Assembly (NCBI GenBank): GCA_025617375.2
Contig: JAMYGW020000025.1
Span: forward strand, 1-34,497
From: Acarospora socialis
Taxonomy: Eukaryota > Ascomycota > Lecanoromycetes > Acarosporales > Acarosporaceae
Reading direction: 5' to 3'
DNA: 34,497 nt
The notes beneath the pieces are model-generated. The model did not search any database and was not told the DNA's origin. It saw only the letters and a program-made list of their open reading frames with translations. Every line of letters begins with the position of its first letter. The first letter of the stretch is position 1. Made by a program: the position numbers and the translations under genes. Below, one piece after another: positions 8,158 through 34,497 of the stretch.

Positions 8158-8339
8158 GGAGTCTGATCATAGTGACCTTAGCACCGATGCTCCACGAAGC
8201 CGCACCTTACCGCAGCGCCTCATATTGTCAAGCCCTATGGATCCGTGACAATATATATTTATTTGTAGTTTTAACGGCTATTTCGAAGCGCATAGTGGCC
8301 AGATTCGTGACATTTCTTCAGGTTACAGTGCTATGAATA

Positions 8340-8804
8340 TGTAGATGCCAAAACCTTAGGTGCACACCCCTCATGAATTTTTTTTCGCAGAGATATTCAC
8401 CACATAGATCCATCACCCACACAGATAATTTGACACTGCAAATTCAGGATCTAATAGTTCTGAGTGAGTACAATTGATTCTCATACAGTCAGCTATCAAA
8501 AACAACGTGATTAGTATGAGAATCATAGATATCAATTACTGAAAATTTTCAGCCGCAAAGGCTTGGCAGACGGAAATCTCCGAGAATAAATTACACATTG
8601 TAATTTGTAATATATCAGCGTGAAACCTCAACAATTTGTGTGACTGCATACTACAAAAGTTGAGCATCAATTGCACTCAGTCAGGACTATAAGATCCTGA
8701 ACTTGCAGCGTCAAATTATCTGTGTGGGTGGTGGATCCATGTGGTGAATCTCTCTGCGAAAAAAAATTCATGAGGGATGTGCACCTAAGGTTTTGGCATC
8801 TACA
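8340..8804. mobile_element. MITE with long terminal inverted repeats, TA duplication
   Basis: The element begins tgtagatgccaaaaccttag and ends with its reverse complement. The arms match almost without gaps for about 115 bp and continue with lower identity to about 145 bp (around 8485), leaving a small core. TA flanks both ends (8338-8339 and 8805-8806), the target duplication expected of Tc1/mariner-type elements. No transposase is encoded. Arm-to-arm mismatches are few (for example cacccctcat against catccctcat), so the copy is not old. An additional partial inverted repeat (gattctcatac / gtatgagaatc) sits inside the core. Confidence 0.9.
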
Positions 8805-8806
8805 TA

Positions 8807-9320
8807 TGTATTACTCAGAGTTATAAACGTCGTAACCTCGCTTTCGCGTGTACTCTCTCGTAGTAGTAGGCTACGGTTTGTTGCGAGGTCTCTTGGGGTT
8901 TAGAAACACTCTCGAAAGTCCATGATGACACTATGCATCACATCCGTGAGTAGGGCGTGCCAGTCTCAAGCCCAATCTCCCTCCGCGAAGGCCAAGTCTC
9001 CCTGGATGTGAAGTCGCATATTAGCGTTCACGAAGGTGCTAGAGCCTGTGCTCCTATGTACATGAGGGTTTCGCCGGAAGAGTGGACCGGATTGTAAGCA
9101 GACTGCTTGAGATTCGGTGGTCAGCTTGCCAAAGGTGGCCCGCACAGTGGCGTAACCTATGGGGCAAGGGGAGTTTCTGTTTATAGTATTATATTAGTAA
9201 AAATCTGATATATCGTGATTTTCAAAGATTGCTAAGTCCTTTGCTTGATGTTGTGAGATAATATTTCTTCAACTTCTCCTTGGAAAGAAGTAGAAGACAA
9301 CTTCATGTCGTCCATACACG
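8807..9320. other. No gene recognised
   Basis: Ordinary-composition sequence between the MITE and the 3' end of the syntaxin gene. It has no ORF over about 60 codons with recognisable content, no repeat and no RNA gene that I can see. The last part presumably carries the 3' untranslated region of the syntaxin gene. Confidence 0.35.
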
Positions 9321-10159: not shown

Positions 10160-10689
10160 ACCGTCGGTTTAGGTTTGAAAAAAGGTAGATGTCTGTTGCT
10201 AATGATTTGAGAGGTTTGAACGCTCAAGATGGGCTATAGTTGGGTTCTGAGTGTTATTATTGTGCTTGTTACTGCTGTTTGGTGGAAGAGTAACAAGGAT
10301 GCAAGTAAAACAGCACTATGAACAATGTTATCAGCAATAAAACCTCAGATGACACACTACATAATAACAATAGATGTTGGGTCTTCAAGGTGAGTAATAT
10401 AACTTCATATACATCCAAGGTGTAACCAAAGCCTAGACAGGCTTAGTATTAGGATCATTATACGAGTGGATGGAAGATGTAATTTCTAAGGATCTACCTA
10501 TGGAAAATCTTTACTATATAGCTATAGAGGTGCCTTCCATATCTAGCAATTAGCCCATTAAGCCCATGACGACAGCGAGGTTTGCAAGTGGCCCGGTGGG
10601 CCACGTCCGAAGGTCGAGGCCGAAATAGCGAGGCTATGCCCTATCCATAACACTTAGTAGATTCAATGACTAGTCAGAAAACATTTATC
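10160..10689. other. Intergenic, with a perfect GC hairpin
   Basis: Upstream region of the syntaxin gene, grading into AT-rich sequence. No gene is seen. At 10588-10604 a perfect short palindrome (gtggccc-ggt-gggccac) lies in a locally GC-rich patch (10560-10640) that ends ccataacac. This resembles the end of the LTR family found elsewhere in the window, so the patch may be a fragment of another LTR. Confidence 0.35.
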
Positions 10690-10952
10690 TGTTATGTTCC
10701 TGACCTGAGATTCCTTGGGTATTAGGGCTAAGGGTTTTGTGCTGTAGAGTATAATGGGTGTAAGGTATGATTGGTAAGTTTTATTGTAGGATAAATATAT
10801 GAGTTGATACTAAGTCTATGGTTACGATGATTATTTGTTCAGGTAGGATTTGGGCATTTTACCATGTGGTGGGCACCTTGGTGGCTAGCCCAGATAGCGG
10901 ATAAACGTTCTTCTGCTGTGTGTTCGCAGAGCTCTATGGGATGTTCGTGACA
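10690..10952 (-). repeat. Divergent solo LTR, reverse orientation
   Basis: The first ~55 bases (tgttatgttcctgacctgag onward) match the reverse complement of the 3' end of the LTR at 19973-20304, including tgacctgagat, cttgggtat, tagggcta and tttgtgct. Similarity fades further in. The other end reads ttcgtgaca, giving TG...CA termini and a length of about 263 bp. No matching target duplication is evident. No internal retrotransposon sequence of that family is attached, so it is a solo LTR or an older subfamily member. Confidence 0.6.
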
Positions 10953-12265
10953 TTTTAGGCTTGTAAGTAGAATGTACTTCTATTGAATGAGTTGAAAAAA
11001 CAATTGTTTCCATTAGAAAATGATCCTACTACATAATAGGTTGCTTGCTTGCTCATTGTTGAGCTGATGAGTCTTTTCTCAATGTCTTGTTGTCAAGCTG
11101 ACAAGCTTGACTGCTCGCTGTTAAGTAGTTAAGATGTTATGTAACTGCTATTTAACAATTTCGCTGATGTATGCTTCTCAGACATGTTAATTAGTTTGTA
11201 CTAAGTCTTTTAAACTTGATTGTAACATCATTTTTATCTCTCTAAGCACTAGTTCTCTAGAACTCATTTAAGTGATTATTAAGTCACAGTCAGATCAGAG
11301 TCAATTGCTCTGACTTGGTCTGTAAGACAATTTGAGTCAGAATATATACTATTATTAGAAATTTCAAGTCTCAATCTATTGATCTAGAACTAGATTGATT
11401 GAAATTAAGCATTAAAAATATATTAGTTTAGTATGATAAAGTTGTTGTTATAGATCAGGATTGACCTGCTAGATATGAAAGGCATCTCTATAGATATATA
11501 GAAAGAATTTTCCATAGATAGATTCTTACATCTTTCATCCACTCATATAATGATTCTAATAGTTGTTAAGTGTTATGATCAAGCTCAGAGAGACTAAAAC
11601 AAACTGATAAGTATATCTGTATAACTGTCAGAGTAAATAATGAAGCACAGTTACAGCACTACACCTTAGTAAGTATAGTTAGATGAGAGTCTATAATGAG
11701 ATTTCTCTGCATAGAAGACTCTTCAGAGATTAGTTTTGACATCAATAGAGATATATTGTGTTGCTCTATCATCAGATAGTTTGTGTATCATTATATCTCA
11801 CACTGTCATAAATCTACTCTAGTAATCTATCTGTGATGATATGCAAATGTGAAGTCAGCAACATTGAAGCAATGATGATATGCTGAATTCATCAAATCAA
11901 TCTTGAAACTGCACAGATTCAAATGATTCACTTGTGATAAATTCATCTTTGATAAACTCATCACAGACAGTGCAACATAAAACTGATCATTCTGCATCAA
12001 CACTTGAGAATTTAGATGTTGAGTTATATTTATTTATTTATTCTTCATTCTATGCATGCAGCTATAAAAGCTATGACAGTTAATAGAAATATAGTGAAAG
12101 ATGTAGACACAAAACAAAACCTGAAATCTTGTACATGTGAATAATCAATCTGAATGCTTTTTGATCACTTCTGTTCAGTCAACCTGATGCTGATTGTCAA
12201 TCAATATCTTTTCTTTCTTCTCACTCTTATTAGATCTTCTCTTCACCCTCAACTTCTTTTAACAA

Positions 12266-15200
12266 TCACTTTCTGATAGCTACTTTAAAAAACAGCAAAG
12301 TAGCTTTGATTTCTTTCTTGATGATAAACAGCACCTTTGCTGTGTATGACAAATTGACATATCTGAGCTGATTTTTCAGCTCAGTTTGCTGATGTTTATT
12401 ATGTTGACAAGCTGTCAACAAATGCTCTGAAGTTTGATCTTTATTACATGCATCATTGCATTTCTTGCTGTCATAGTCTGATAATCTATGCAAATATGCT
12501 TTGAAATAGTCATGATCCAGTTTCATTTGTGTGGAAGTAGCAAATAAAAGTCTGTCTGCACTTCTCAGATCTTCTTTGATGTGAAAACTAGATGTTTGAT
12601 CAAACTGAGCATAGTATCTTTCTTGAGTTGTCTTTTCTCAGTGAGTAGTTCAGTTTTTCAGTGCTTTGATCTTGATTTTGCACTTAATATAGCTAATAGA
12701 TGTAAATCTATCAGTATCTGATGAAATTGACTGTTTTGCACCTGATTTTGCAGCTTTATCTGCTATTTCATTGTCTTTAATGTCTTCATGTTCAGAAATT
12801 CAATGAATATGAGATGTAATCTCATAATCTATGAGTTTTTGAAGAGTTTCTTGACATTTAATAGCTAGATGCTGTTCAGATCCTTGATTTGTGGTTTGAA
12901 TTCTTTGTATAGCTGCTTGATTGTCTGAAAAAATTCATATGTCTTTGATTCTTTGATATTTCATGATTTCTTTGAGGCTTAACTTTAAAGACTGTGAAAT
13001 TCCAAACAATTCAGCATCATAGACTTTCATGATGATTTCTAGATTTCAAGATTGTTGATGTATAATGTCTTTATACATGTAGCAAAGATCTACATCTAGA
13101 TTTTCATCTAATTTTGACTCATCTGTGTACAAAACAGCATTTCTAGATCTGATATTCATAGACAAAAGAGTTTCTAGTCTCTTTAGATGTTTCAAAGTAG
13201 TTAGTTTCTTGTCAGATTTGCTGATTTGAATATCTATATCTGATGAAATGCTTCAAGATGCACAGTGTAACTCATTTTGAGTTGAAACTTTCAAATTCAG
13301 TGTTTCTGATAGATATTTGCAAATGTTATATAGCACTTTAATCAACTGAGTTAGATGTTTCTTCTTAATAAGTGAGTTTGAGTGTTGATTTCAGTCAAGA
13401 TAATGATTTTCATCTATATCACAATCAGTTTCAAGTTTTGATGAATAGATGTATGATGTTCTTTGTTTAATTAAATGATTTTCTGACAAAGTAGCTATTC
13501 TTAAAGCATATAGCTCAGTTTTTTGATCAAGTCTGAATCTGAGTGATATTATAGCTGATTTTAACTCTAATGCAGCTGATGATGAAAATTTAAATGCATC
13601 TAAAATTTTTCTAGTTGCTGAATTCTGAAGTTTTTGAAAGAGTTTTTCAAAGTTCTTTTATTGTTTTCATCAGATTGAGCTTTCATAATCACTTATAGAT
13701 GTGATGCAAACTGTATATAGCTGTTTTTCAGCTGATGTTGATAAATCTCATTCAGAATTTATCAGTCTGCAATAAATGCAGAGTTTTAGTTGCTGAGACT
13801 ATTTTCTTTTGCACATGTGTCATAAAAGACATTTTAGTGTCAAATCAAACTTCTAGTCAGTGTACAACTTCAGAAGATTGTATAACAGTGTTGTTTGATA
13901 GTTTAACTATTGATGTGACTTTGTTTTCTTTCTGAAAATGAATCAACTCTGACTTGCTGTCATCAAATATGACTGTATTTTCTTTAGCTCATTGAAATGC
14001 AGTTTTGATGACTGATTCTAGTGTTTTGCTGTTTTCTGCAGCTGATTTTTCTTTTATAATAATGACAACATTATCAATATAGCTTGATAACTTTAGTTGA
14101 GTGTGTTTTTTGTGAATAGAAATCTCATATAGATCAGAAATAGCATTGATGATATGAATGATTCTTGTGAAATTTCAGAATTAACACTTCATGAGTGATT
14201 TCTCTCATCATCAAATGCTAAAGCAATTGTTCTCTTTGTAAGAAAGCATTGTACTCATTTTAGCACAGTTTGTGATAAATGAAGTCTTTTCATGACTTTT
14301 AGCAGTTGATTCAAAGACACATAGTTAAATGCATCTTTAACATTCAAGAATAAAGCTGTCAAGACTTTGTTGTTGTTGATTGCTTGTTGAATATCATGTG
14401 TTAAACACATAGCTGCATCAATAGCTGATCTTTGCTTTTTATCATTCATTTGCTCATGATATAGCAAGTCTGTGATTTCAGCTCAATAGAAAAGTCTTGT
14501 TGTCATTATCTTTTCAGATATTTTGCTCAAGCAATTTAGTAGTGTGATTGATCTATATGCTTTGAATACTGAATAGTCTGATTTGTCTTTTTTTCTCAAG
14601 ATTGCACTAGTTTCTTGATACCAGCATACTGGATGATAGTCTTGATTTATTAAAACTGAATAAACAGTGTGAAATAATTCAGATATAGCTTGATATGCAT
14701 GTTGAATTATCACAAAAGACAATTCATCTGGTTCAGATACTTTCTTTGTTGATGAAGTCATAATAGTTTGCTTTATTTCTTTAGAAATAACTGAAAATCA
14801 TGATTTTGTAAAGCTATTGTCATCTTCTAGCTCAACTGAGCTGATTTGAGGTGATTTTGAAAACATGACTTCAAGAAATAAGTCACATTTGTCTTTGAAT
14901 GTGAGTTTCACTTTGTTTTTGTGCTTTATGAAAGATGTTTTCTCTATTTTTTGTGATTTAGTGTAATGATATGTTGTAAAAATATCTTTTTTAGCTGCAT
15001 CTTGCAGAAAAGTAGTTCATGAGGTATGTTTGACTTTCTGAATTGCATAAAAATATCTATTTCTTGCATTTCTGAATTGATTTCAATTTTCTTGTGATTT
15101 GTAATGTTTTCAGTATGTTTTAAAATTACTCATTTTAGTTCTAAGAACTGATAATGATTCAGATCATCATACTTTGACTTTTGAACAGAATTTTCTCTTT

Positions 15201-15590
15201 GATATATGCAGATCTGCTGCATTTGCTATCAAATTTCTAAGAGAAATAGCTATTTCTTCTAGATTTTGATTTGATAGTGTTTGCATAAAGCTTTGAATTT
15301 GAATGTCAGCTTATGTTGAGTTTATTTGCAGTGTTTCTGCAAATTTAATTCAGTCTGCTTTGTCTATGTTGTATGATGCACTCAGTGAACTTTCAATTCA
15401 TTCAGACTTATTTGCAGTTAATTCAAACTGAATAACTTCATGATCTGATTCAGACTTCATATCTTGATTTACTTGTCAGTTTCTTATGAAATTGCAAAGT
15501 AAAGATGTTGCAAATGTCAAATCAATCACTGCTTGAGTGAGTCTAGATTTGTATTTTATCTTACTTAATTCAGTATCTTGATGCTAATTT
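12266..15590 (-). pseudogene. LINE ORF2 (EN tail, RT, RNase H), destroyed by C-to-T mutation
   Basis: Reading 5' to 3': 15590-15400 shows an endonuclease end (TQAVIDLTFATSLL and a later SDHEVIQFEL with the catalytic Asp-His). 14761-14483 holds RT blocks with KAYRSITLLNCLSKISEKI, and 14467-14255 has QRSAIDAAMCLTHDIQQA and FLNVKDAFNYVS. The RT active-site box reads YIDN at 14081-14070 in place of (F/Y)xDD. RNase H lies at about 13150-12750 with YTDES, VYDAELFG, FSDNQAAI and KDNEIADKAAK; its acidic residues are kept. The ORF ends with a Cys/His cluster (KKCNDACNK...EHLLTAC) and a stop at 12266. Many in-frame stops are TGA at Trp positions, for example the Trp-Trp pair near 13670-13685 and HI*IS near 12805. 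Gly positions are often Glu or Asp. The element is dead. Confidence 0.88.
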
Positions 15591-15994
15591 CTAGTTCTTG
15601 TTGAACTATAGAGTTTGTAAATTGCTGAAGTACTTATTTGAGATGTTTTCTGACTTGTTAAAGTAGTTCATTACTATTTTGATTGTCTTTGAGATTAGTT
15701 TCATGCAGATTTGCACAAATTTCATAATAATTTGATTTTTTATCAGAGAAAATAGTTTCTGATACTGAGCTGACAAATGATTTTTTTTTTTAGACTTTAA
15801 AATAATCTTTTGAGAGAGTTTCATAATAAATTGTGATCTCAACAGATCTGGTGAACTCATAAAGAGTTGTGAAAGTGTTGTTTTTGATAATTTTTGTTGT
15901 TTTATGAGTGTTTTTAAGTTTTCTGTGTTGAAATCTCACATGAAATTGCTGAGATCTAGTGCAAAAGTCATGATATGAGATGTTTCTTGAAGTT

Positions 15995-16032
15995 CATTCA
16001 ATTCAAATTCAAATTCTATTCAAATTCAGTTC
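15995..16032. repeat. Short AATTC-type simple repeat
   Basis: Tandem-like run of attcaattcaaattcaaatt and close variants inside the mutated 5' part of the LINE block. It has no coding value. It probably arose or was exposed by the mutation of the surrounding repeat. Confidence 0.5.
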
Positions 16033-16647
16033 AGAAGATCTATGTTTAACAGTAATTATTTAATTTTAGAAGATTAAAACTAGACTTTTCTGAGATTTTA
16101 AATTATAGAAGCTTTGAATTCTTATTTCATCTAGAATAAACTGTACTCAATTGTCTAATTCAGATGTTGCTTAATATCTCAATTCATCTAAAGTAGATAG
16201 ACTCTACAATAGACTTTTATAATAAGTAAAATTGTACTATAAGTCACTCAATTGTTTTTGATGTTTTGATGTGAATAAGACTTAGTTGAGATATCTGATG
16301 TTGTTTGATGTGCAGAAATTCTGTTAAGTAAGTTAAGAAAATTAAGTGAGAATTTGTGAACTTCAAAAATCTAGATACTAAGAAATACAATTAAACAGTT
16401 CAACAACTTTGTGAGCAATGAAGATATTCAAAAGCAGTAATAATATGAATTTTAAAAGAGATCAATGCAAAGAAAACTGTTGATTCAGATTTTTCAAAAA
16501 TGTGTTGATTATGATGATGTTGATGTTCAAAATGTTGTTTTGAATTTTTGACTGAAGATATATGAATAATTTTCTGCAAGTAGTAATTGAGATTCTCAAT
16601 CATCAATATTGATGAGTCAGCATATGAAGATCATCACATACCTCTGC

Positions 16648-17870
16648 TCAATCCGCCAGCTGAAATGACACCTTAGCTGCAACAACTCCTCCCGGCCAAG
16701 GTTCAGACCAGGTAATTATTAGCTCTCCTCTCTCTTCATCAAAAGCCCATGGATGCGGATAAATGCAGTACATGAATGACTTGTGATGATGTAATCCTGT
16801 TGCTTGGAAAAGCTCAAGAAACTCCCACGGTCCTTCCAATCTTGGTGCCGTACCCATGATGACCTTGCTGTCACCGCAGGTACCAACACCAATGAAGATG
16901 TAGTTCTTGCCTTTGGAAGGGTGGAAGAGGTTCGAACGATATATGCCGCCGTGCTGTTTGTCCGAGAAAGCAGGCTTTGCGCTTTGCATGTCCTCCATGT
17001 AATCTTTTCCGTTCCAGAATGTGTAGGCTGACCTTTTGAAGGGATCCGCCGTGACGGCTACTCTGCCTAACATGATGTCCTTACCGTGGTGGCCCCAAAG
17101 GTAGATGTAGCCGTCGTTCCCGACAAGCGTTGCGAATGCGCCCCAGCATGGCTCGGAGGCCTATATTAAATGCTTAGCATCTTGAGTCAGAGCTAGTGGA
17201 GGATGTACCTACGTCAAACAAATCCTTTCTTTCGAAAGCGATGGCATTACCAGACTTTTCATCTAATCGAACCCGAGCTACTCCTGTCCCTAGAGGAAGC
17301 GGCAGTGGGCCATTGTCCTAGCCATTGGTGAGAACATAGTCAAAGAGTTGCCGTGGTCGATACTTACGCACTTCCCTCTCTCGAACCAGCACCATCCCGT
17401 ACCAGCACCGAGATGGTCCTCAGCAATACCGCTAAAACTCCACAAGGTACACCGGCCTTTGTGGTGTTTGTCTGCGTCAGATGCTTTCTCAGCTTCGGTC
17501 AAGGGAATGAATGAGACGACTTGACCGTCTTTATCGACAGCAAGGTACTTGGTCTTGGTGGGGCAATGCTTGTCCGGCACGCTGGCACAGGTGTGGCTGA
17601 CCACACCTGTGAATTTACCTTTGTCATCCTTGCAAAAGGTGTCTCCGAAGGTATAGAATGCGCGCCCTCCAAGAAATGATGAGCAGCCAATATCTCGAGA
17701 GTCATGAGGTTTTCGGTCTATAAGAATGATCAGCAAAGAATATTACGGTAGAGTCAATCATGCTGATCACCAGTAGGTTATGGTGACTGACCATCGTGAA
17801 CATATCCAAGAATCTCGACGTTTAGTGGTAGTGGAGGGTAGATTGCGTATTTGCGGCCCACCTTGTCCAT
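16648..17870 (-). CDS. DUF4185-like beta-propeller protein
   Basis: Four exons: 17870-17792, 17717-17368, 17317-17213, 17160-16648, giving 348 residues with the frame kept. Introns of 74, 50, 52 nt have donors GTCAGT, GTAAGT and GTAGGT and acceptors ending TATAG, GCTAG and ATATAG. The start ATG (MDKVGRKYAIYPPLPL) follows an AT-rich upstream region; the frame stays open for several codons above it (AYTATFT), so a longer 5' exon cannot be ruled out. No signal peptide is visible from this start. Residues ~35-54 (RDIGCSSFLGGRAFYTFGDT) and later WCWFERGKC, WGAFATLVGNDGYIYLWGHH and IITWSEPWPGG recall the repeated sheet-forming blocks of DUF4185 and glycosidase-like five-bladed propellers. The family's function is not established; carbohydrate binding or hydrolysis is only an analogy. 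No disabling mutation is seen although a mutated LINE begins almost at the stop codon. Confidence 0.8.
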
Positions 17871-19972: not shown

Positions 19973-20304
19973 TGTTACGACCAAGCCCAGAGGGGCTAGT
20001 CGAACCAAGGACGGTGACTCCATGTACGCAGGGACGGGACAGGAGGTACCGCTTGACGGTCACGTGATAACGAACTCGACGGTGCGACGCCATCGAGCCA
20101 GCATACTCGAACCCTGGGGGGCTTCGAGTCCATAGTATATAGAGGGATCGTTTCCCCTATGGAAACGATCGTGTTCAACTTCTCATCTAGCAATAGAGTT
20201 ACCATCTACGGGTTTACCCAACCGTACCATACAAATCGTTATATCAACAAGCACAAACCTCTAGCCCTAACATACCCGAGGCATCTCAGGTCTAGGACAT
20301 AACA
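19973..20304 (+). repeat. LTR copy 1, little mutated
   Basis: It starts tgttacgaccaagcccagag and ends ctaggacataaca, giving inverted TGTTA...TAACA termini and a length of 332 bp. A TATA-like tatatagaggg lies at about 20134, as expected of an LTR promoter region. It retains many CpG and CpC dinucleotides, unlike the copy at 33336-33672. Directly downstream, caatttggtgacatgg could contain a primer-binding site (TGGTGAC...). Five-base flanks (cgtac / caatt) do not match, so it is not a clean solo LTR. Confidence 0.85.
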
Positions 20305-21267
20305 CAATTTGGTGACATGGCTCAGAGCTGGCTCAGAGCTAGATTTTGCTCACTTTTACTCAAAAAACTGCTCTGAGCTCATGTCTCAGCTCAGGGCCAC
20401 TCTGAGCTAGCTCTGAGCTACATATAAAATGTGTATAAAAGTGAATAATATTCATAAATAAAATCATAAAAAATTGCTTAGTAATCAGTCTATATTTAGA
20501 AACTTTCTTGATTTTAGATAAATTTAATAGCTATAAGTGTGTGTAGTATTAGTAATTATAATGTATTAGATACTAGTGTATTTTGTCTGAATTTTTCAAA
20601 AATGAAATTATAAATACACTAGTGTTGATGAGTCATTAATTAAAGCATTAGTGTTGTTTTTACACTAAGCTATTAAGCTTAAATCTTAGTACATAGCTTA
20701 ATTCTAATTTTAGTAATTTGTAATATATGATGTAAAATACAATATAAATGAAATATATAATTCATAAGATTACTAAGCAGCTCAAAGTTCACTTAAAGCA
20801 CTCAGAGCTACTACACACAGCTAAAAGCTAGCTCTAATGTCAGAGTGCAATACTTACAATGAGAAGTTAAGTCCTCAGTAGAGATCTATTGGGCTCAATG
20901 CCATATAGTAATTAGTATGTGAAGTAGAGCTGTGGCTATCTGAGTCAAGTGTTAAGTATGAAGTCTGTTGTTGTTCTACTCTAAGCTATGTGTGGGAGTT
21001 ATATAAGGCCTAAGCGAACGCAGGGGAAGCAAATAGGCTAGGGTTTAACCATAACACTTTCACTAGGTTCTACAGATCTACAGATTCCTGATAGTGATGT
21101 ATTTCTTGTAAAGTGATCTCTGTGTTCAATAGTGTTAGAAAATAGCATTAAAACAATGAAGTTGACAGTATTTATGATTCAGCTTTGCATATCTCTTTTG
21201 TTTAGTCATTGTGTTCAAGTTAATTGAAGGTTACGGATTACCCTAGCATTCACTTACCTGGCCCTCG
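20305..21267. other. Spacer between the two LTRs, with palindromic repeat cluster
   Basis: 963 bp without coding content. The first 120 bp hold several copies of a GCTC(A/T)GAGCT palindrome (see separate entry). 20430-20870 is AT-rich with no recognisable protein. 20880-21070 is less AT-rich and ends with gggtttaaccataacac, which resembles a decayed LTR end. I see no gag or pol. It may be the deleted interior of an element bounded by the two LTRs, or unrelated nested repeats. Confidence 0.45.
20320..20419. repeat. Cluster of GCTC(A/T)GAGCT palindromes
   Basis: Copies at 20320-20329, 20331-20340, 20370-20379, 20400-20408 (one base short) and 20410-20419. Related half-motifs (agctc, gctagctctaatg) reappear at about 20776-20840 near the far end of the AT-rich part. 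Closely repeated short palindromes near both ends of a segment are typical of subterminal transposase-binding repeats of hAT-like elements, but I could not establish terminal repeats or an 8-bp target duplication. Confidence 0.55.
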
Positions 21268-21600
21268 TGTTACGGCCAAACCCAGAGGGGTTAGAGCAGA
21301 CATGAGGAAGGGACTCCATGTACGCTGGTGCACGGAACAAGAGAGCACGACTCGACGGTCATGTGATGTCGAGCGCGACAAGGCGACACTGTCGAGCCGT
21401 CGTACTCGAAGCCTGAGGGGTTTCGAGTCCATAGTATATAGTAGGGTCGATTCCCTTATGGAATCGATCGTGTTCAACTTACTTTACCAACAAGGTTACT
21501 ATCTACTGGTTTACCAACCGTACCATACAAATCGTTATATCAACAAGCACAAACCTCTAGCCCTAACATACCCGAGGAATCTCAGGTCTAGGACGTAACA
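21268..21600 (+). repeat. LTR copy 2, little mutated
   Basis: It starts tgttacggccaaacccagag and ends ctaggacgtaaca, 333 bp, in the same orientation as copy 1. The two copies share the terminal ~190 bp closely (tatatagt/ag, tgttcaactt, ccgtaccatacaaatcgtta, atctcaggtctaggac) and differ more in the first half. The 5-bp flanks (cctcg / ctatc) do not match each other or those of copy 1. They could be a 5'/3' pair of one deleted element or two solo LTRs. Confidence 0.85.
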
Positions 21601-22145
21601 CTATCATATTTTCTTAATGATAAACAACTTCAGTTTTTCATAAATTTTTCTGTGAATGAACTCATTTGATTTACAGTAAAAGAATATGATCTGAATCTTA
21701 TTCATTTTATTTACTTTACTCTCTATTTAAAACTGAAATTCATTATAACAATAAAGATATTCTCATTTAATTTTTCATTCTTTTTACTTTCTCACAATCA
21801 CTTTATTCAAATTTTTTAACAAAATATTCAAAAATTTCTTCAAAAGTTCTCATTCTTTCACAAGATCTTTCTTTTCACAGTATATATTTTATTAATTTAT
21901 GACAGAATAGTGTAAATATTAAATCATCTTTGAATACTGAGTCTTCTTTAACATATTCTCTATATTAGTATTCATCTAATAACAAAAGTCACAGTAATGA
22001 TCATAAATACTGCTTTTATAGAAATCAACATTCAAGAATATCTTAATAAAACAGATTCATTTAGTTTCACATTCAATCTTTAAATTGAAAAATTCTCAAC
22101 AATTATGCTTGATTTATTCACAGAGTTAAGTTCTTGTTTTTATGC
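21601..22145. other. AT-rich mutated repeat block
   Basis: Strongly AT-rich, with CpG and CpC essentially absent, so the same mutational signature as the LINE block. No protein could be read in any frame. It begins exactly after LTR copy 2 and ends at the insulysin fragment, so it has replaced the 5' part of that gene. It may be the mutated interior of a retroelement. Confidence 0.6.
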
Positions 22146-27100: not shown

Positions 27101-27430
27101 TGGGCGATCAATATCCTGCATCCATGAACTCTGACTTTCTGCCACCACATGGCATTGATGCTGCCGCTATATTCCTCCTTTGAGCGACGTCGCAGAACCT
27201 CCCACCCATAAGTCACGACCCTGATGAATCTGTCCCAAGCCGATGCGAATTGTCCGCGTATAGTGTCTTTTGCATGCGAATTGTTGATATCATGAGCTGG
27301 ACAAGGTGGATGACATTCAGTGACGCGGCACGGGTTCTCTGCAAGAGTTGGTAGCCGAAATTCACGATAATCTGAATTGCATACTGTTTTATAAAGTCTT
27401 GACAACAATGATCTCTTACAAAATTTGATG
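24160..27430. other. Low-confidence ORFs only
   Basis: Several ORFs of 65-135 codons, none assigned. Examples: 25161-25358 minus (ends SYFHGQLVIAKYNG), 25368-25772 plus (with a hydrophobic stretch LLLFVSYLAICFPFFLLVAK), 25844-26245 plus, 26096-26350 minus (tail with ARDLRKRKRGGES, a possible nuclear-localisation-type basic run), 26576-26908 plus, and 27097-27456 minus. The 26096-26350 frame has a CTGTAG acceptor-like site just upstream (around 26360), so it could be a terminal exon. Without homology I cannot separate decayed genes from chance frames. Confidence 0.3.
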
Positions 27431-28170
27431 AGATTTTCTTCAAGTTTGCACACCAATTGATCAAGAGATTAATAATTCTGTTATGTCACAACAGTGAAGC
27501 TCAAATATTACTACAACAAAGACCAGTTGTAAGAAGTACAATTCACAAAGCAGGTGCAATGTCATTCAGGAGCTTTACATTGAAGAAATAAAGTGAGTGT
27601 TTAATTGATTTACTTTTCATCAAGATCAACCATCAACTTTGAACATCTCAACCTACTTGAAACAGATTGATATGATAAACAGTTTACAAAGGGTGTCAAA
27701 AACATGAAAGCACAATCAGTGAGACTTAAGAGCAGTATACAATACTTGTACTGAACAAAGTTGCTTCTCTTTGTGTGTTGTAAACATCTTCTGCTGTTTG
27801 AGCACCACTTATTGCTCTGCCACGATCTTTGACATCTAGTCTTGGGTTGAGGCTACACCTCAAAAAACTCGCCCATGGCCGCTTATGTCACCTAGCCTCA
27901 GGCTCACTTGTAATGCCACAGCGCTAAAATGCTGACTAAGATCTCTCAGTCTTCAACTCTTCATGTGTAAGCATATCTTAACTTCCAGTTGAACAAAAGT
28001 TTTTCTTATAATTTTGTCTTATTTAGAGCATCATAGAAATAATATATTCCATAAAAGAAAATGAATAATTGTAGAGTCGCTCAAGTCAGATATTTTACAG
28101 CTGATGAAGTGCTCAGATTGCTTAGTCAGAAAACAGTGTGTGTGCACCTTCATAGAATCAAAACCTGAAC
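27430..28170. other. AT-rich repeat-like block with a GC-richer insert
   Basis: Mostly AT-rich sequence of the same look as the other mutated blocks, with no readable protein. A GC-richer patch (about 27830-27960, including ggcttatgtcacctagcctc-like text) interrupts it. The block forms the upstream flank of the F-box gene; the gene's promoter would lie between it and 28484. Confidence 0.4.
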
Positions 28171-31099: not shown

Positions 31100-32820
31100 A
31101 AGTCAAACTGCACGTACCGGCAAACAAAGAAACTGTTTTGTTTGCGCATGCTCTACCATATAGAGAATTCGCACCCCGTACCCTCCTGACTTTAAGCACC
31201 TTTACTGCATGTGCACCGCAGATCATTGTAAAGCAATGATACTGAATAACTATTCAAAGTATAATGGGAGCCGATTCATACACTGACCCAAGTCACAGCT
31301 AATTGAGAACCACTCTCTACTCTGCTCAGTCAGATGGTCTTTATGATGGTGATAGATCTAATTGATAGAAATTGAGTGATCAATCTCAAGAGAACCTTCT
31401 ACTTCGCCTTGCCACGTTGAGTCGAGATTCAAATGACTTCGCGCACCCCTGTACGCTGCCCTGCCCAAGGTGTTGCTGCCTGATATGAGAGCCCGCGACA
31501 GCATTCTAGGTACTACATTACATCAAAGTAGATCTATGAGCTATCACCGATGTAGTGGACAATAATACGTAAGTTACCTTTTGGTCTAGCTCGCTGCGAG
31601 GCGAGAATCGGCAACAATGCATGCAAAGTGAAGCTCCTAAAACACATTTCAGGGTCAAGGCATTAGCTGACCACGACTAGGCTACCTTCGTCCGCAAGGA
31701 CGACAACTAGATAGCACGCCAAGGAAGACGACAAAGAAGAAAAACATTCAAAAAGATGCTTTCGAACAATTATGTACAGTGCCATATAAACTTGCACGCA
31801 GAAGAGGCTGACGTCACTGTCTCAGATCCATCCTCCAGCAAAAAACAGCATAATGAGCAAGAATGAAAGAAAATTGCGAGGCCAGTAGAGGAGGCTCTAG
31901 GTTCAAATCTACGGACCCTTGCGGTAAAGGTGCTAAATATTGACCGTCCAATATAGGACCTCCACCCATTTGACATCTGGCGCATAAACAGCTCGCCATG
32001 CCCTAGGGAGACATCGGTAGCGTTAAGTAGCTGATAGTCTTCTTAAAATTAAAGAATTCATATTGGCCAGCTAATACATCGAGGTCAAAATCCTGCTTTA
32101 GCAACTGATATACTAGAGAGTAAGCTTCTGTACAGGACCATCCCGTAGTATGATCTTCATCTGGTTATGCTCATGGGGAAACCGGGGAGGGTGATATTAA
32201 ATAATCAAACTCACAGCCTCTATACTACCGATGTAAATATTCCGAGGCGGTGGACCACCAACGGGGTCTAATTTACACCTCCATTCATACCGGAAGTCAT
32301 TATGTTAGATTCATGGGTTCCGGAATCGGCTATGACATTGATCAGTTGTCCGAGAGAGGGCGAGGCCCCGGAAAAGGTGGGGTTGAGGAAAGAAGGACTT
32401 GTTCTGTGATATCTTTTGATTTCAAATGGTTGTGCACCTGTCTGTAATATGCATGGTTCTTGAGGTGGCCGAGGAAGGCTACTGTCATGGATCCGCATAT
32501 CTTGGACCGATTCGACCATTTGGAGGATCTACTAGGTACGCCGCCTTTAGATCAAGTGGTTGGACCTACCTGTGGAACGAGGGGGTCACATTGTCATAAC
32601 TACAGATGGAGTCTAGTATAACAGTAGAGTCTGGACATGGCTTCAAAAACAACTCCGCGGCATGTCTTTCCGTACCACAGCTCATGGCTTCATCGCAACA
32701 GCAAAGCTTCAAGGTGTAAGGATTTGAAGCAGGAAAAGCCACTCTGCAATATTCACTTATCTAATTCTCCACTCAACATACTTGAAACTCAACTTGAACA
32801 GCTGATCAAAGTTTCATCAT
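31100..32820. other. No gene recognised
   Basis: ORFs of 60-83 codons (31770-31985 and 32268-32519 minus, 32250-32447 and 32637-32822 plus) show no family resemblance. There is no splice-linked exon set that I could assemble, no RNA gene and no clear repeat. AT content rises toward 32820. Confidence 0.35.
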
Positions 32821-33335
32821 AGTATTTTCTGGCTTTACTGAAAGATAAGTATAAATCATTAAAACTTCTTTCTTTCTTCAGCATCTCTTTGTTATGTTCT
32901 CACTGAAGATTTCTCTGGTATTAGAGCTAAGAGTTAAGCTTAGTGATATAAAGATTTCAATGACAACATCTTTGTAATAAATTTTCATCATGGCATTTGT
33001 AGAACTGATAAATTTATTGTGATTTATTATTTTATTAAGCTCATTCTCAACTTCATTGAGCAGTGTGAACTTATATTTAAATCTATAGTCATTTTGTATA
33101 AATTATTAGATTTGATTGTAACATTATTCTTTTTTGAATATTAATTCTTGTTGAAATTAAAGATCTTTAAAATTTCAACTCTATTCAATCTGACTTCTCT
33201 ATGTCATATGATACTGCTTAATCAGCATACATTAAAAGTTATTTTCTTTGTGTAGCTTAGTATTTTAAATATTTAAGATATCTAATAGTAAGTAATAGAA
33301 ATGTTTCAATTTCAACAGATTATATACTTAAATTT
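32820..33335. other. AT-rich mutated repeat sequence
   Basis: Very AT-rich, with CpG and CpC nearly absent, and no readable protein. It directly precedes the mutated LTR, so it is probably an older repeat into which the gypsy-type element inserted, or with which it was co-mutated. Confidence 0.5.
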
Positions 33336-33672
33336 TGTTACAACCATAAAATAGATTCATGAGACTATGCAGAGAGAGCATAAGAAGAAAACTGTTAAAC
33401 AGCAGTCACATAACATCTCATCATGCTCAATGATAAGCTTGATGAGCAAACTTAATGAATTGCATAAATGAGTCAGCTTAATGAGCTCAATGATAAGACT
33501 GATGAGCAGACTTAGTATATAGTTATGATTATTTTTCTTATGAAAATAATCATGTTCAACTTCTAATTACAATTTAAAAATTAAATTTACAGCTGCACAA
33601 AAACTCTTATATCAACAAGCTCAAACATTTTAACTCTACATACTCAAGAAATCTCAGATCTAAAATGTAACA
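33336..33672 (+). repeat. LTR copy 3, heavily mutated (5' LTR of gypsy-type element)
   Basis: It aligns end to end with LTR copies 1 and 2. It starts tgttacaaccataaaatag and ends aatctcagatctaaaatgta-aca, 337 bp. In the last 180 bases the differences from copies 1/2 are mostly C-to-T or G-to-A at CpG and CpC/GpG. CpA steps such as ttcaac, atcaacaag and gcacaa-like positions are largely kept. It is followed by gag sequence, so it is the 5' LTR of the element continuing off the window. Confidence 0.85.
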
Positions 33673-34497
33673 CTTTGAATACTTCTATAATATAAAAATA
33701 ATCACTTTCACAGCACAGAAATCAACTTCAACAAGTTAAATCAATCTTTAAGACCTTTAGAGAGTTTTTAATGTTTCTAAGATATTGTCACTCAATGTAT
33801 TCATCAGCAAAAGACAAAAGCTGCAGAGTTTTTTAATCAAGTTCAAATCATACATGAAATTCAATCAAGATAAATTCAAGTTCAAAATGAACAAGAGTTT
33901 ATTCATCATGTTGTATATGAAGAATGTAGTTTTCAGTTGAATCAATTTTAAACTGCATGAATTTCTTGACAAGACAGTTCAAGAATGACTTATAAATAAA
34001 GAATTCATCTTCTCTGACTATGACAAGTTCAAAATAAAACTATAAAAAGTTCTTAAAATAGTCAATGAGAAGCAAGCAGCAAGAAGATATCTACACATTC
34101 TAAAAATAAACAAGTCAGCAACTAAATATGCAGTGAAGTTTCAGAGAATTGCAGTTTTAATAGATTGAAATGATGATGTTTTCACATCAGTGTATTACTG
34201 AGAACTTTGTGAAACTATTAAAGATAAGATAGCTCAAATCAATCAATTAGATACTTTACAGAAAATGATTAATATCTTTAGCAACATAAATAATCAACAA
34301 TGAAAGCAACAGATAAAGTGAACTGAGTATTAAGTGTCATTAAAATTTGAATGAGAAAGAAAGCTCACTTAAATATGCTGAAAAAGTGATTCTATGAATC
34401 TTAACATGATTAAAAAACATCATCAAAAATCATAAAAGACTAAATAAATGAAGTCTAAACATCAAAAATAAAAAATTTAATGAGTCTTAAACATCAC
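33673..34497 (+). pseudogene. Mutated gag of a Ty3/gypsy-type retrotransposon (partial)
   Basis: From 33980 the frame reads a retrotransposon gag core: QE*LINKEFIFSDYDKFKIK, KVLKIVNEKQAARRYLHILK, SATKYAVKFQRIAVLID*ND, VYY*ELCETIKDKIAQINQL. The pattern of a charged helix, a YAxxFQRIA-like motif and an acidic W-containing stretch is that of fungal gypsy Gag. In-frame stops are mostly TGA where Trp is expected (QEW, DWND, YYWEL, FEWER), with a few TAA. The element is dead and truncated by the window end. It is preceded by the LTR at 33336-33672. Fungal chromovirus-like elements are the nearest group, but pol is outside the window. Confidence 0.8.

Follow-up and report, generated by a model that had tools for sequence, protein, structure and literature searches.

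Results

CpG-free blocks and LTR copies in the window

The analyzed window comprises 34,497 nucleotides of Acarospora socialis DNA and corresponds to contig C25 of a 31.1-Mb genome assembly in 38 contigs. Its gene-like parts showed CpG O/E values of about 0.63-0.85, and two AT-rich blocks contained no CpG. The first block (11163..16653; 5,491 bases) held 0 CpG against 118.6 expected from base composition and 26 CC/GG against 240.6, with CA/TG raised to 863 from an expected 576.9. The same trend was observed in the second block (32695..34497), which reaches the contig end: its 1,802 bases counted from 32,696 held 0 CpG against 32.6 expected and 10 CC/GG against 65.7. In both blocks CpC/GpG amounted to 11-15% of expectation, and CA+TG as well as CT+AG were in excess. 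Block edges differed, being sharp at 16,600 (within 100 bp) and gradual at 10,200-11,200 (about 1 kb). A further CpG-free stretch of 458 bases (27366..27822) had few CC/GG (8) and many CA/TG (74) between 27400 and 27799. No match was obtained in an Rfam scan over the window. An inverted repeat with 147-base arms (8337-8483 and 8661-8807; 93% complementary, 177-base spacer) was observed in DNA of normal GC content.

The second block contains a mutated LTR remnant (33336..33672, plus strand), whose family is represented by 41 other matches in the genome list. Compared with the expectation from composition, this remnant had 0 CpG (7.2 expected) and 1 CC/GG (14.7), together with 52 CA/TG (35.5) and 46 CT/AG (34.2). 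Two little-mutated copies lie on the same strand at 20052..20308 (copy 1; 7 CpG in a 170-bp core) and 21351..21604 (copy 2; 7 CpG in a 167-bp core), and a further relic of a related LTR, 78% identical to both over about 90 bases, was found at 10690..10777 (minus strand). The DNA between copies 1 and 2 (20340-21350) is also AT-rich, with a signature that differs from that of the CpG-free blocks (CpG O/E 0.28, CpC 0.73, TpA/ApT 1.25).

The first-pass annotation had described the remnant as the product of a RIP-like C-to-T mutation of CpG and CpC that spares CpA, quoting two alignment examples, both of which are present in the sequence. When this one short alignment was recounted over the sites at which copies 1 and 2 have the base and its 3' neighbour in common, losses fell mainly where it had placed them (C-to-T at 7/12 CpG and 9/16 CpC); CpA was indeed spared (1/13), whereas CpT was not clearly so (5/13). 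Copies 1 and 2 do not represent the derived state, since their C/G letters recur in other little-mutated copies and are shared by a young element with only 3/301 differences between its two LTRs. The indices proposed in that annotation, calculated for the two AT-rich blocks, gave TpA/ApT values of 0.66 and 0.78 and (CpA+TpG)/(ApC+GpT) values of 1.76 and 1.60, the opposite of classical RIP.

Context of C-to-T changes

Among 29 aligned copies of related LTRs, 10 had retained six or more CpG over about 170 bases, 16 had retained 0-1, and three were intermediate (L050, L057 and L058; tabulated apart for C-to-T rates and left out of the dinucleotide-fate table). Rates in the 16 mutated copies were calculated against the nearest little-mutated copy, with each base confirmed by two further such copies. 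C-to-T changes were found at 116/218 CpG and 188/284 CpC sites, and at 30/248 CpA and 35/310 CpT sites. Both strands were affected (108/187 CpC sites on the top strand, 80/97 on the bottom strand). Reverse changes in the family (T-to-C 13/674, A-to-G 12/814) reached 1.5-1.9%, against 11-12% C-to-T at CpA and CpT, so that the survival of CpA noted in the first-pass annotation holds for most sites without these being untouched. The preference for a 3' C or G was maintained throughout all tables made, and CpA was never the most mutated context. Loss at CpG occurred regardless of the 5' base, with no requirement for a 5' T. The strand tracts expected for RIP gave a weak signal (z values of 2.0, 2.9, 0.6, 0.5, 1.8 and -1.6 at lags 1, 2, 3, 5, 10 and 20).

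Scored as dinucleotides, 1/109 CG, 39/282 CC, 209/246 CA and 261/305 CT were retained in the 16 mutated copies. Former CpG sites were found as TG (46), CA (52), TA (8), CG (1) or other (2), and former CC sites as TC (149), CT (46), TT (36) or other (12), in addition to the 39 that were kept. CpG loss per strand is close to one half because a single hit ends the site; from these fates it follows that CpA, which classical RIP prefers as its target, is the end product in this genome.

Extent beyond the window

The hypermutation of CpG and CpC is confirmed; it is far stronger than first stated and reaches well outside the window. Twenty loci (L021-L040; 198 kb) were picked for holding LTR copies, and figures drawn from them describe these loci rather than a genome-wide fraction; as baseline we used the methyltransferase loci together with those parts of the window that are not AT-rich. 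In 500-bp windows at 25-30% GC (204 windows, 102 kb), 1 CpG and 113 CC+GG were counted; at 20-25% GC (18 windows) there were none of either, and at 30-35% GC (125 windows) 15 CpG and 307 CC+GG. The 33 copies of at least 200 bp that belong to the LTR family of the remnant in these loci (10,195 bases) contained 0 CpG and 67 CC+GG, as against 1,659 CA+TG and 1,484 CT+AG.

Longer elements followed the same trend. For 20 alignments, each 1,500 bp or longer (shorter ones were dropped) and taken from 19 loci outside the window, the reference was a young, little-mutated LTR element (L061, C14:275700-282200; CpG O/E 0.81, LTRs 99% identical). Sites kept were 0/1,993 for CpG and 31/5,800 for CpC, compared with 4,641/7,399 (63%) for CpA and 3,809/6,415 (59%) for CpT. 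C-to-T changes at CpA and CpT amounted to 28-35%, against 7-8% for reverse changes, a value that is partly ordinary divergence because the reference belongs to another subfamily (68-72% identical).

Among the loci sampled, only transposon-bearing ones were affected. Mutation there is confined to repeats, with one edge sharp and one gradual, and genes are spared (CpG O/E 0.86-0.95 in four methyltransferase loci). Short LTR copies in GC-normal flanks were little mutated and long elements were mutated, the exceptions being one young long element and a LINE family, both little mutated. Five of the six DNA-transposase loci (L062-L067) were outside the CpG-free state; L067 is CpG-free, and along it CpC passes from being kept to being mostly lost.

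The reading frames of dead elements bear the same context. Hits at CpG and CpC produce TGA (from CGA and TGG), whereas hits at CpA produce TAA and TAG. The 150 reverse transcriptase (RVT_1) matches listed, of 151 found among 435 candidates, contained 418 TGA, 60 TAA and 21 TAG stops (418/499 TGA), while TGA makes up 51% of stop triplets over all frames of 11 affected loci. Stops in 17 DDE_1 matches were TGA 53, TAA 16 and TAG 6 (53/75 TGA), and those in 19 DDE_3 matches TGA 15, TAA 2 and TAG 1.

Order and timing of the losses

The order of the losses was followed in the window and in 30 loci, which together gave 518 windows of 500 bp. CpC O/E below 0.2 coincided with CpG O/E below 0.1 in 342 of them, and another 24 had CpG O/E below 0.1 with CpC O/E of at least 0.2; none of the 518 combined CpC O/E below 0.2 with CpG above 0.1. 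CpG is lost first and CpC second. Eight windows (in L067, L028 and L029) had lost CpG at CpC O/E of 0.6-1.3, representing either an intermediate stage or descent from CpG-poor elements.

The three differences between the LTRs of the young C14 element are all C-to-T at CpG (3/3). When four mutated LTRs from two elements were compared with this copy, 72/72 CpG, 124/133 CpC, 16/115 CpA and 12/129 CpT sites had changed; the differences comprised 199 transitions and 4 transversions, besides 2 gap columns. In one of the four all 27 CpG and all 45 CpC had changed, accompanied by 69 transitions and 0 transversions in 359 bases. Moreover, in six mutated LTR pairs, each from one element and together covering 1,691 bases, the differences were 227 transitions, 2 transversions and 1 gap column. 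The two LTRs of an element are identical at insertion, so these differences arose afterwards. In two of the mutated pairs, sites with TG in one LTR and CA in the other numbered 4 and 5 (shuffled means 0.51 and 0.47), indicating independent hits on a lost CpG in the two LTRs; complementary TC/CT sites in the same pairs (4 and 1) were not above shuffles (maxima 5 and 6). From the comparison of transitions and transversions in LTRs, the mutation rate is much above background substitution. Near-complete loss of CpG and CpC with almost no transversions identifies an active mutator working after insertion, rather than slow decay.

An almost CpG-free LINE family

The first block also contains a dead LINE copy (13046..14731, minus strand), 88% identical to an open frame in L028. 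It belongs to an almost CpG-free LINE-like family (RT and RNase H) with open frames, represented by L028:7798-9900 (minus strand), L029:1-2000 and L068. At least 40 copies of it (40 of the 61 candidates were scored) lie on 13 contigs. These copies are 95-99% identical over 1.7 kb and form a single cluster per contig, within 143 kb; from this clustering, the sites are possibly centromeres. Among the RT matches listed, 23 were stop-free, all of LINE type by length (660-750 bp), and 21 of these lay at listed LINE places, the other two (C14:70865 and C1:2765376) falling inside the same clusters. The LINE-type stop tally covered 37 RT matches of 714-753 bp and left out four LINE matches of 660-687 bp, two on C8 (1 TGA and 1 TAG each) and two on C3 (no stops).

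The L028 frame contained 2 CpG, whereas a synonymous choice of codons with GC3 unchanged would give 45.3 (s.d. 5.5; minimum among 2,000 sets, 24); its CC+GG numbered 76 against 108.5 (s.d. 7.0). Of these 76, 51 lie in Pro CC, Gly GG or Trp GG. AGA accounted for 17 of the 20 Arg codons, and neither an NCG codon nor a C|G codon junction was present. In 22 columns with Arg in at least three of four distant relatives, the LINE kept Arg at 14, 11 of them as AGA. A second copy, a 401-base piece on C1, was 99% identical and had 1 CpG. CpG scarcity was thus read in two copies, and the identity of 95% leaves room for more CpG in the rest.

In the dead copy, C-to-T changes were found at 54/72 CpC, 27/284 CpA and 37/226 CpT sites; CC was kept at 2/72 sites, 70 having changed. 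Ten of its 12 new stops were TGG to TGA, one was CAA to TGA and one CAA to TAA. Its 37 transversions indicate that it is older than the LTR cases, and it shows that CpC was hit even where hardly any CpG existed. That so many copies remain open suggests either that the CpC stage is slow or that their sites shelter them.

Cytosine methyltransferase genes

The first-pass annotation had proposed a search for RID/DIM-2 homologues, and DIM-2, RID-like and DNMT5-like genes were found. A PF00145 profile search of the genome retrieved three genes (L017, L018 and L019), whose nearest named relatives are from lichen-forming fungi. L017 combines a methylase with a BAH domain, is related to PDB entry 9bap (E 2.3e-191) and is 62% identical to the 'DNA methyltransferase Dim-2' of Pleopsidium flavum. 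L018 has two exons, a single methylase domain and PPC, ENT and QARKR motifs, its nearest named relative being a hypothetical protein of P. flavum (51%). We take L018 to be RID-like from its single domain, by elimination and by the usual features of the family, as its matches carry generic names only; an NCBIfam scan likewise returned only generic methylase names. L019 (C8:614409-614897 and around) is a relative of 7r76 (named Rad8), which we take to be Cryptococcus DNMT5. One ascomycete thus carries three cytosine methyltransferase genes, of DIM-2, RID-like and DNMT5-like type.

Discussion

The context of the changes, their order, their presence on both strands, their completeness, the independent hits after insertion, their speed and the resulting TGA stops were all observed directly. 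They are probably the mark of a RIP-like defence that turns C into T on either strand of transposon copies, CpG first, CpC next and CpA or CpT hardly at all. Repeats would be recognised, probably through the RIP pathway with repeat homology as the presumed trigger, and a RID- or DIM-2-type cytosine methyltransferase may promote the C-to-T change, perhaps in the sexual (premeiotic) phase. The target would require G:C or C:G as the next pair, so that CpG would be consumed fast and then CpC, until exhausted; CpA and CpT, and the products TpG and TpC, would be poor substrates. A CpG hit once would become TpG or CpA and then stop, because neither product is a target, and in runs of C the last one before A or T would be left. 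Such a 3'-neighbour rule might arise if the enzyme contacts the guanine amino group in the minor groove, which both G:C and C:G offer. Several observations count against this reading. Many near-identical LINE copies with open frames, on which a strong, homology-triggered mutator of CpC would be expected to leave its mark, are present, and the DNA-transposase loci are mostly unmutated or have lost CpG only. The weak strand-tract signal, the complementary TC/CT counts no higher than in shuffles, the unequal block edges and the generic names of the L018 matches weigh on the same side.

The rule could instead be the sum of two enzymes acting in sequence, a CpG-specific process coming first (e.g. 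methylation by DNMT5 or DIM-2, or a CpG-type RIP) and a CpC-specific one later (e.g. RID). We regard this as the less probable account, although it deserves weight: CpG loss always preceded CpC loss in the 518 windows, eight of these (L067, L028, L029) had lost CpG at CpC O/E of at least 0.6, the genome has three methyltransferase genes, and CpC was lost from the LINE copy of the window even though CpG, as a starting point, is nearly absent from its living relatives. A single enzyme with unequal preferences would nevertheless yield the same order, and several of the eight windows are LINE sequence, whose open relatives are also without CpG.

The first-pass annotation had offered two interpretations, a variant RIP or deaminase specificity and methylation-linked deamination. 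Its interpretation is supported as regards a variant RIP-like specificity, whereas slow deamination alone is unlikely, given the near-complete loss of CpG and CpC and the near absence of transversions. A model without RIP, in which CpG and CpC of heterochromatin are methylated and then deaminate spontaneously over evolutionary time, would agree with the lead of CpG, with the methylation apparatus in the genome and with the restriction of the effect to transposon-bearing loci. In vertebrates the mutation rate of methylated CpG exceeds that of other sites only about tenfold, and here 205 CpG/CpC sites were nearly all lost alongside 4 transversions, and six LTR pairs accumulated 227 transitions to 2 transversions, which makes this explanation unlikely. 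Still less credible, to the point of being very improbable, is an APOBEC-like deaminase acting on single-stranded retroelement cDNA. Some such enzymes are known to prefer a C neighbour, but editing of cDNA affects one strand, before insertion, whereas here both strands are hit and the two LTRs of one element differ in the positions hit; matches to a DNA transposase (DDE_1), moreover, also carry mostly TGA stops (53/75). A search of the genome for APOBEC_N gave no match, but carries little weight, the control being equally empty.

The LINE family is the more surprising part of these results and the most testable. It is conceivable, though we hold it only tentatively, that a hypermutator requiring G:C or C:G on the 3' side of its target has been evaded by a LINE which, kept at one site per chromosome, was recoded almost without CpG and thereby escapes the fast CpG stage, and that the slower CpC stage killed the window copy. 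Recoding would offer no way round this second stage, since Trp TGG, Pro CCN and Gly GGN depend on CC or GG. That CpG can be removed by synonymous codons and CpC cannot suggests why a defence might extend beyond CpG. No description of a CpG-free fungal LINE was found in the literature consulted on escape from RIP, and the literature search found no paper on escape from RIP through codon usage.

By the index thresholds used in RIP surveys, searches based on TpA/ApT and on CpA depletion would score these blocks as unmutated, and mutators of this kind may therefore be overlooked elsewhere. The strict context also provides a handle on the target choice of RID/DIM-2-type enzymes.

Taken together, the data are best interpreted as a defence of RIP-like type in which C is attacked where G or C follows; this makes it a variant of a known process, for which one precedent has been reported. 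As in Neurospora crassa RIP, C-to-T changes occur on both strands and are confined to repeats, and RID-like and DIM-2 genes are present. The order of preference in Neurospora is given in excerpts of PMC5496416 as CpA>CpT>CpG>CpC; here, in contrast, CpG is followed by CpC, and CpA and CpT come at the end. There is no enrichment of TpA, the usual indices give the values of unmutated DNA, and the signature of classical RIP (CpA preferred, TpA up, CpA down) is absent. Going by excerpts of two papers, RIP affects CpG and CpA in the MATE elements of Aspergillus nidulans (PMC2621366) and CpA and CpG alike, with CpC last, in Trichoderma reesei (PMC5496416); both species share CpG as a main target with A. 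socialis but, according to these excerpts, also take CpA. In Cladonia rangiformis, another lichen former, RID and DIM-2 homologues and GC-poor transposon blocks with sharp edges are described in the portion of PMC12542154 consulted, with a GC minimum of about 16% as compared with about 24-32% here; CpG and CpA have 0 occurrences in the main text of that paper.

The first-pass annotation knew of no mutator with a preference for a 3' C or G, yet a precedent exists: one sentence of a review (PMC9409882) names 'especially CpG and CpC' as the dinucleotides affected by repeat mutation in Coccidioides (Onygenales). It was the only account of fungal transposon mutation at 'CpG and CpC' found in the literature search. 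CpG and CpC are thus the main C-to-T targets in both fungi, as far as that one sentence of PMC9409882 carries the comparison, and judging by its nearest named proteins the Acarospora genome is far from Onygenales. A further likeness is offered by Microbotryum, for which excerpts of PMC2621366 give the RIP context as CpG. In Microbotryum and other Pucciniomycotina, excerpts of PMC5381629 report hypermutation of retrotransposons at TpCpG, with an average of 1.7/35 sites hit per copy. Set against these excerpts, the two systems share a CpG-based, RIP-like mutation of retrotransposons, and A. socialis differs in that CpG is hit with any 5' base, CpC is hit as well, and both to exhaustion. The authors of PMC5381629 suggest that there may be an advantage for variants able to 'shed RIP target sites', and the LINE family of A. 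socialis would provide a concrete case of the escape that they predicted.
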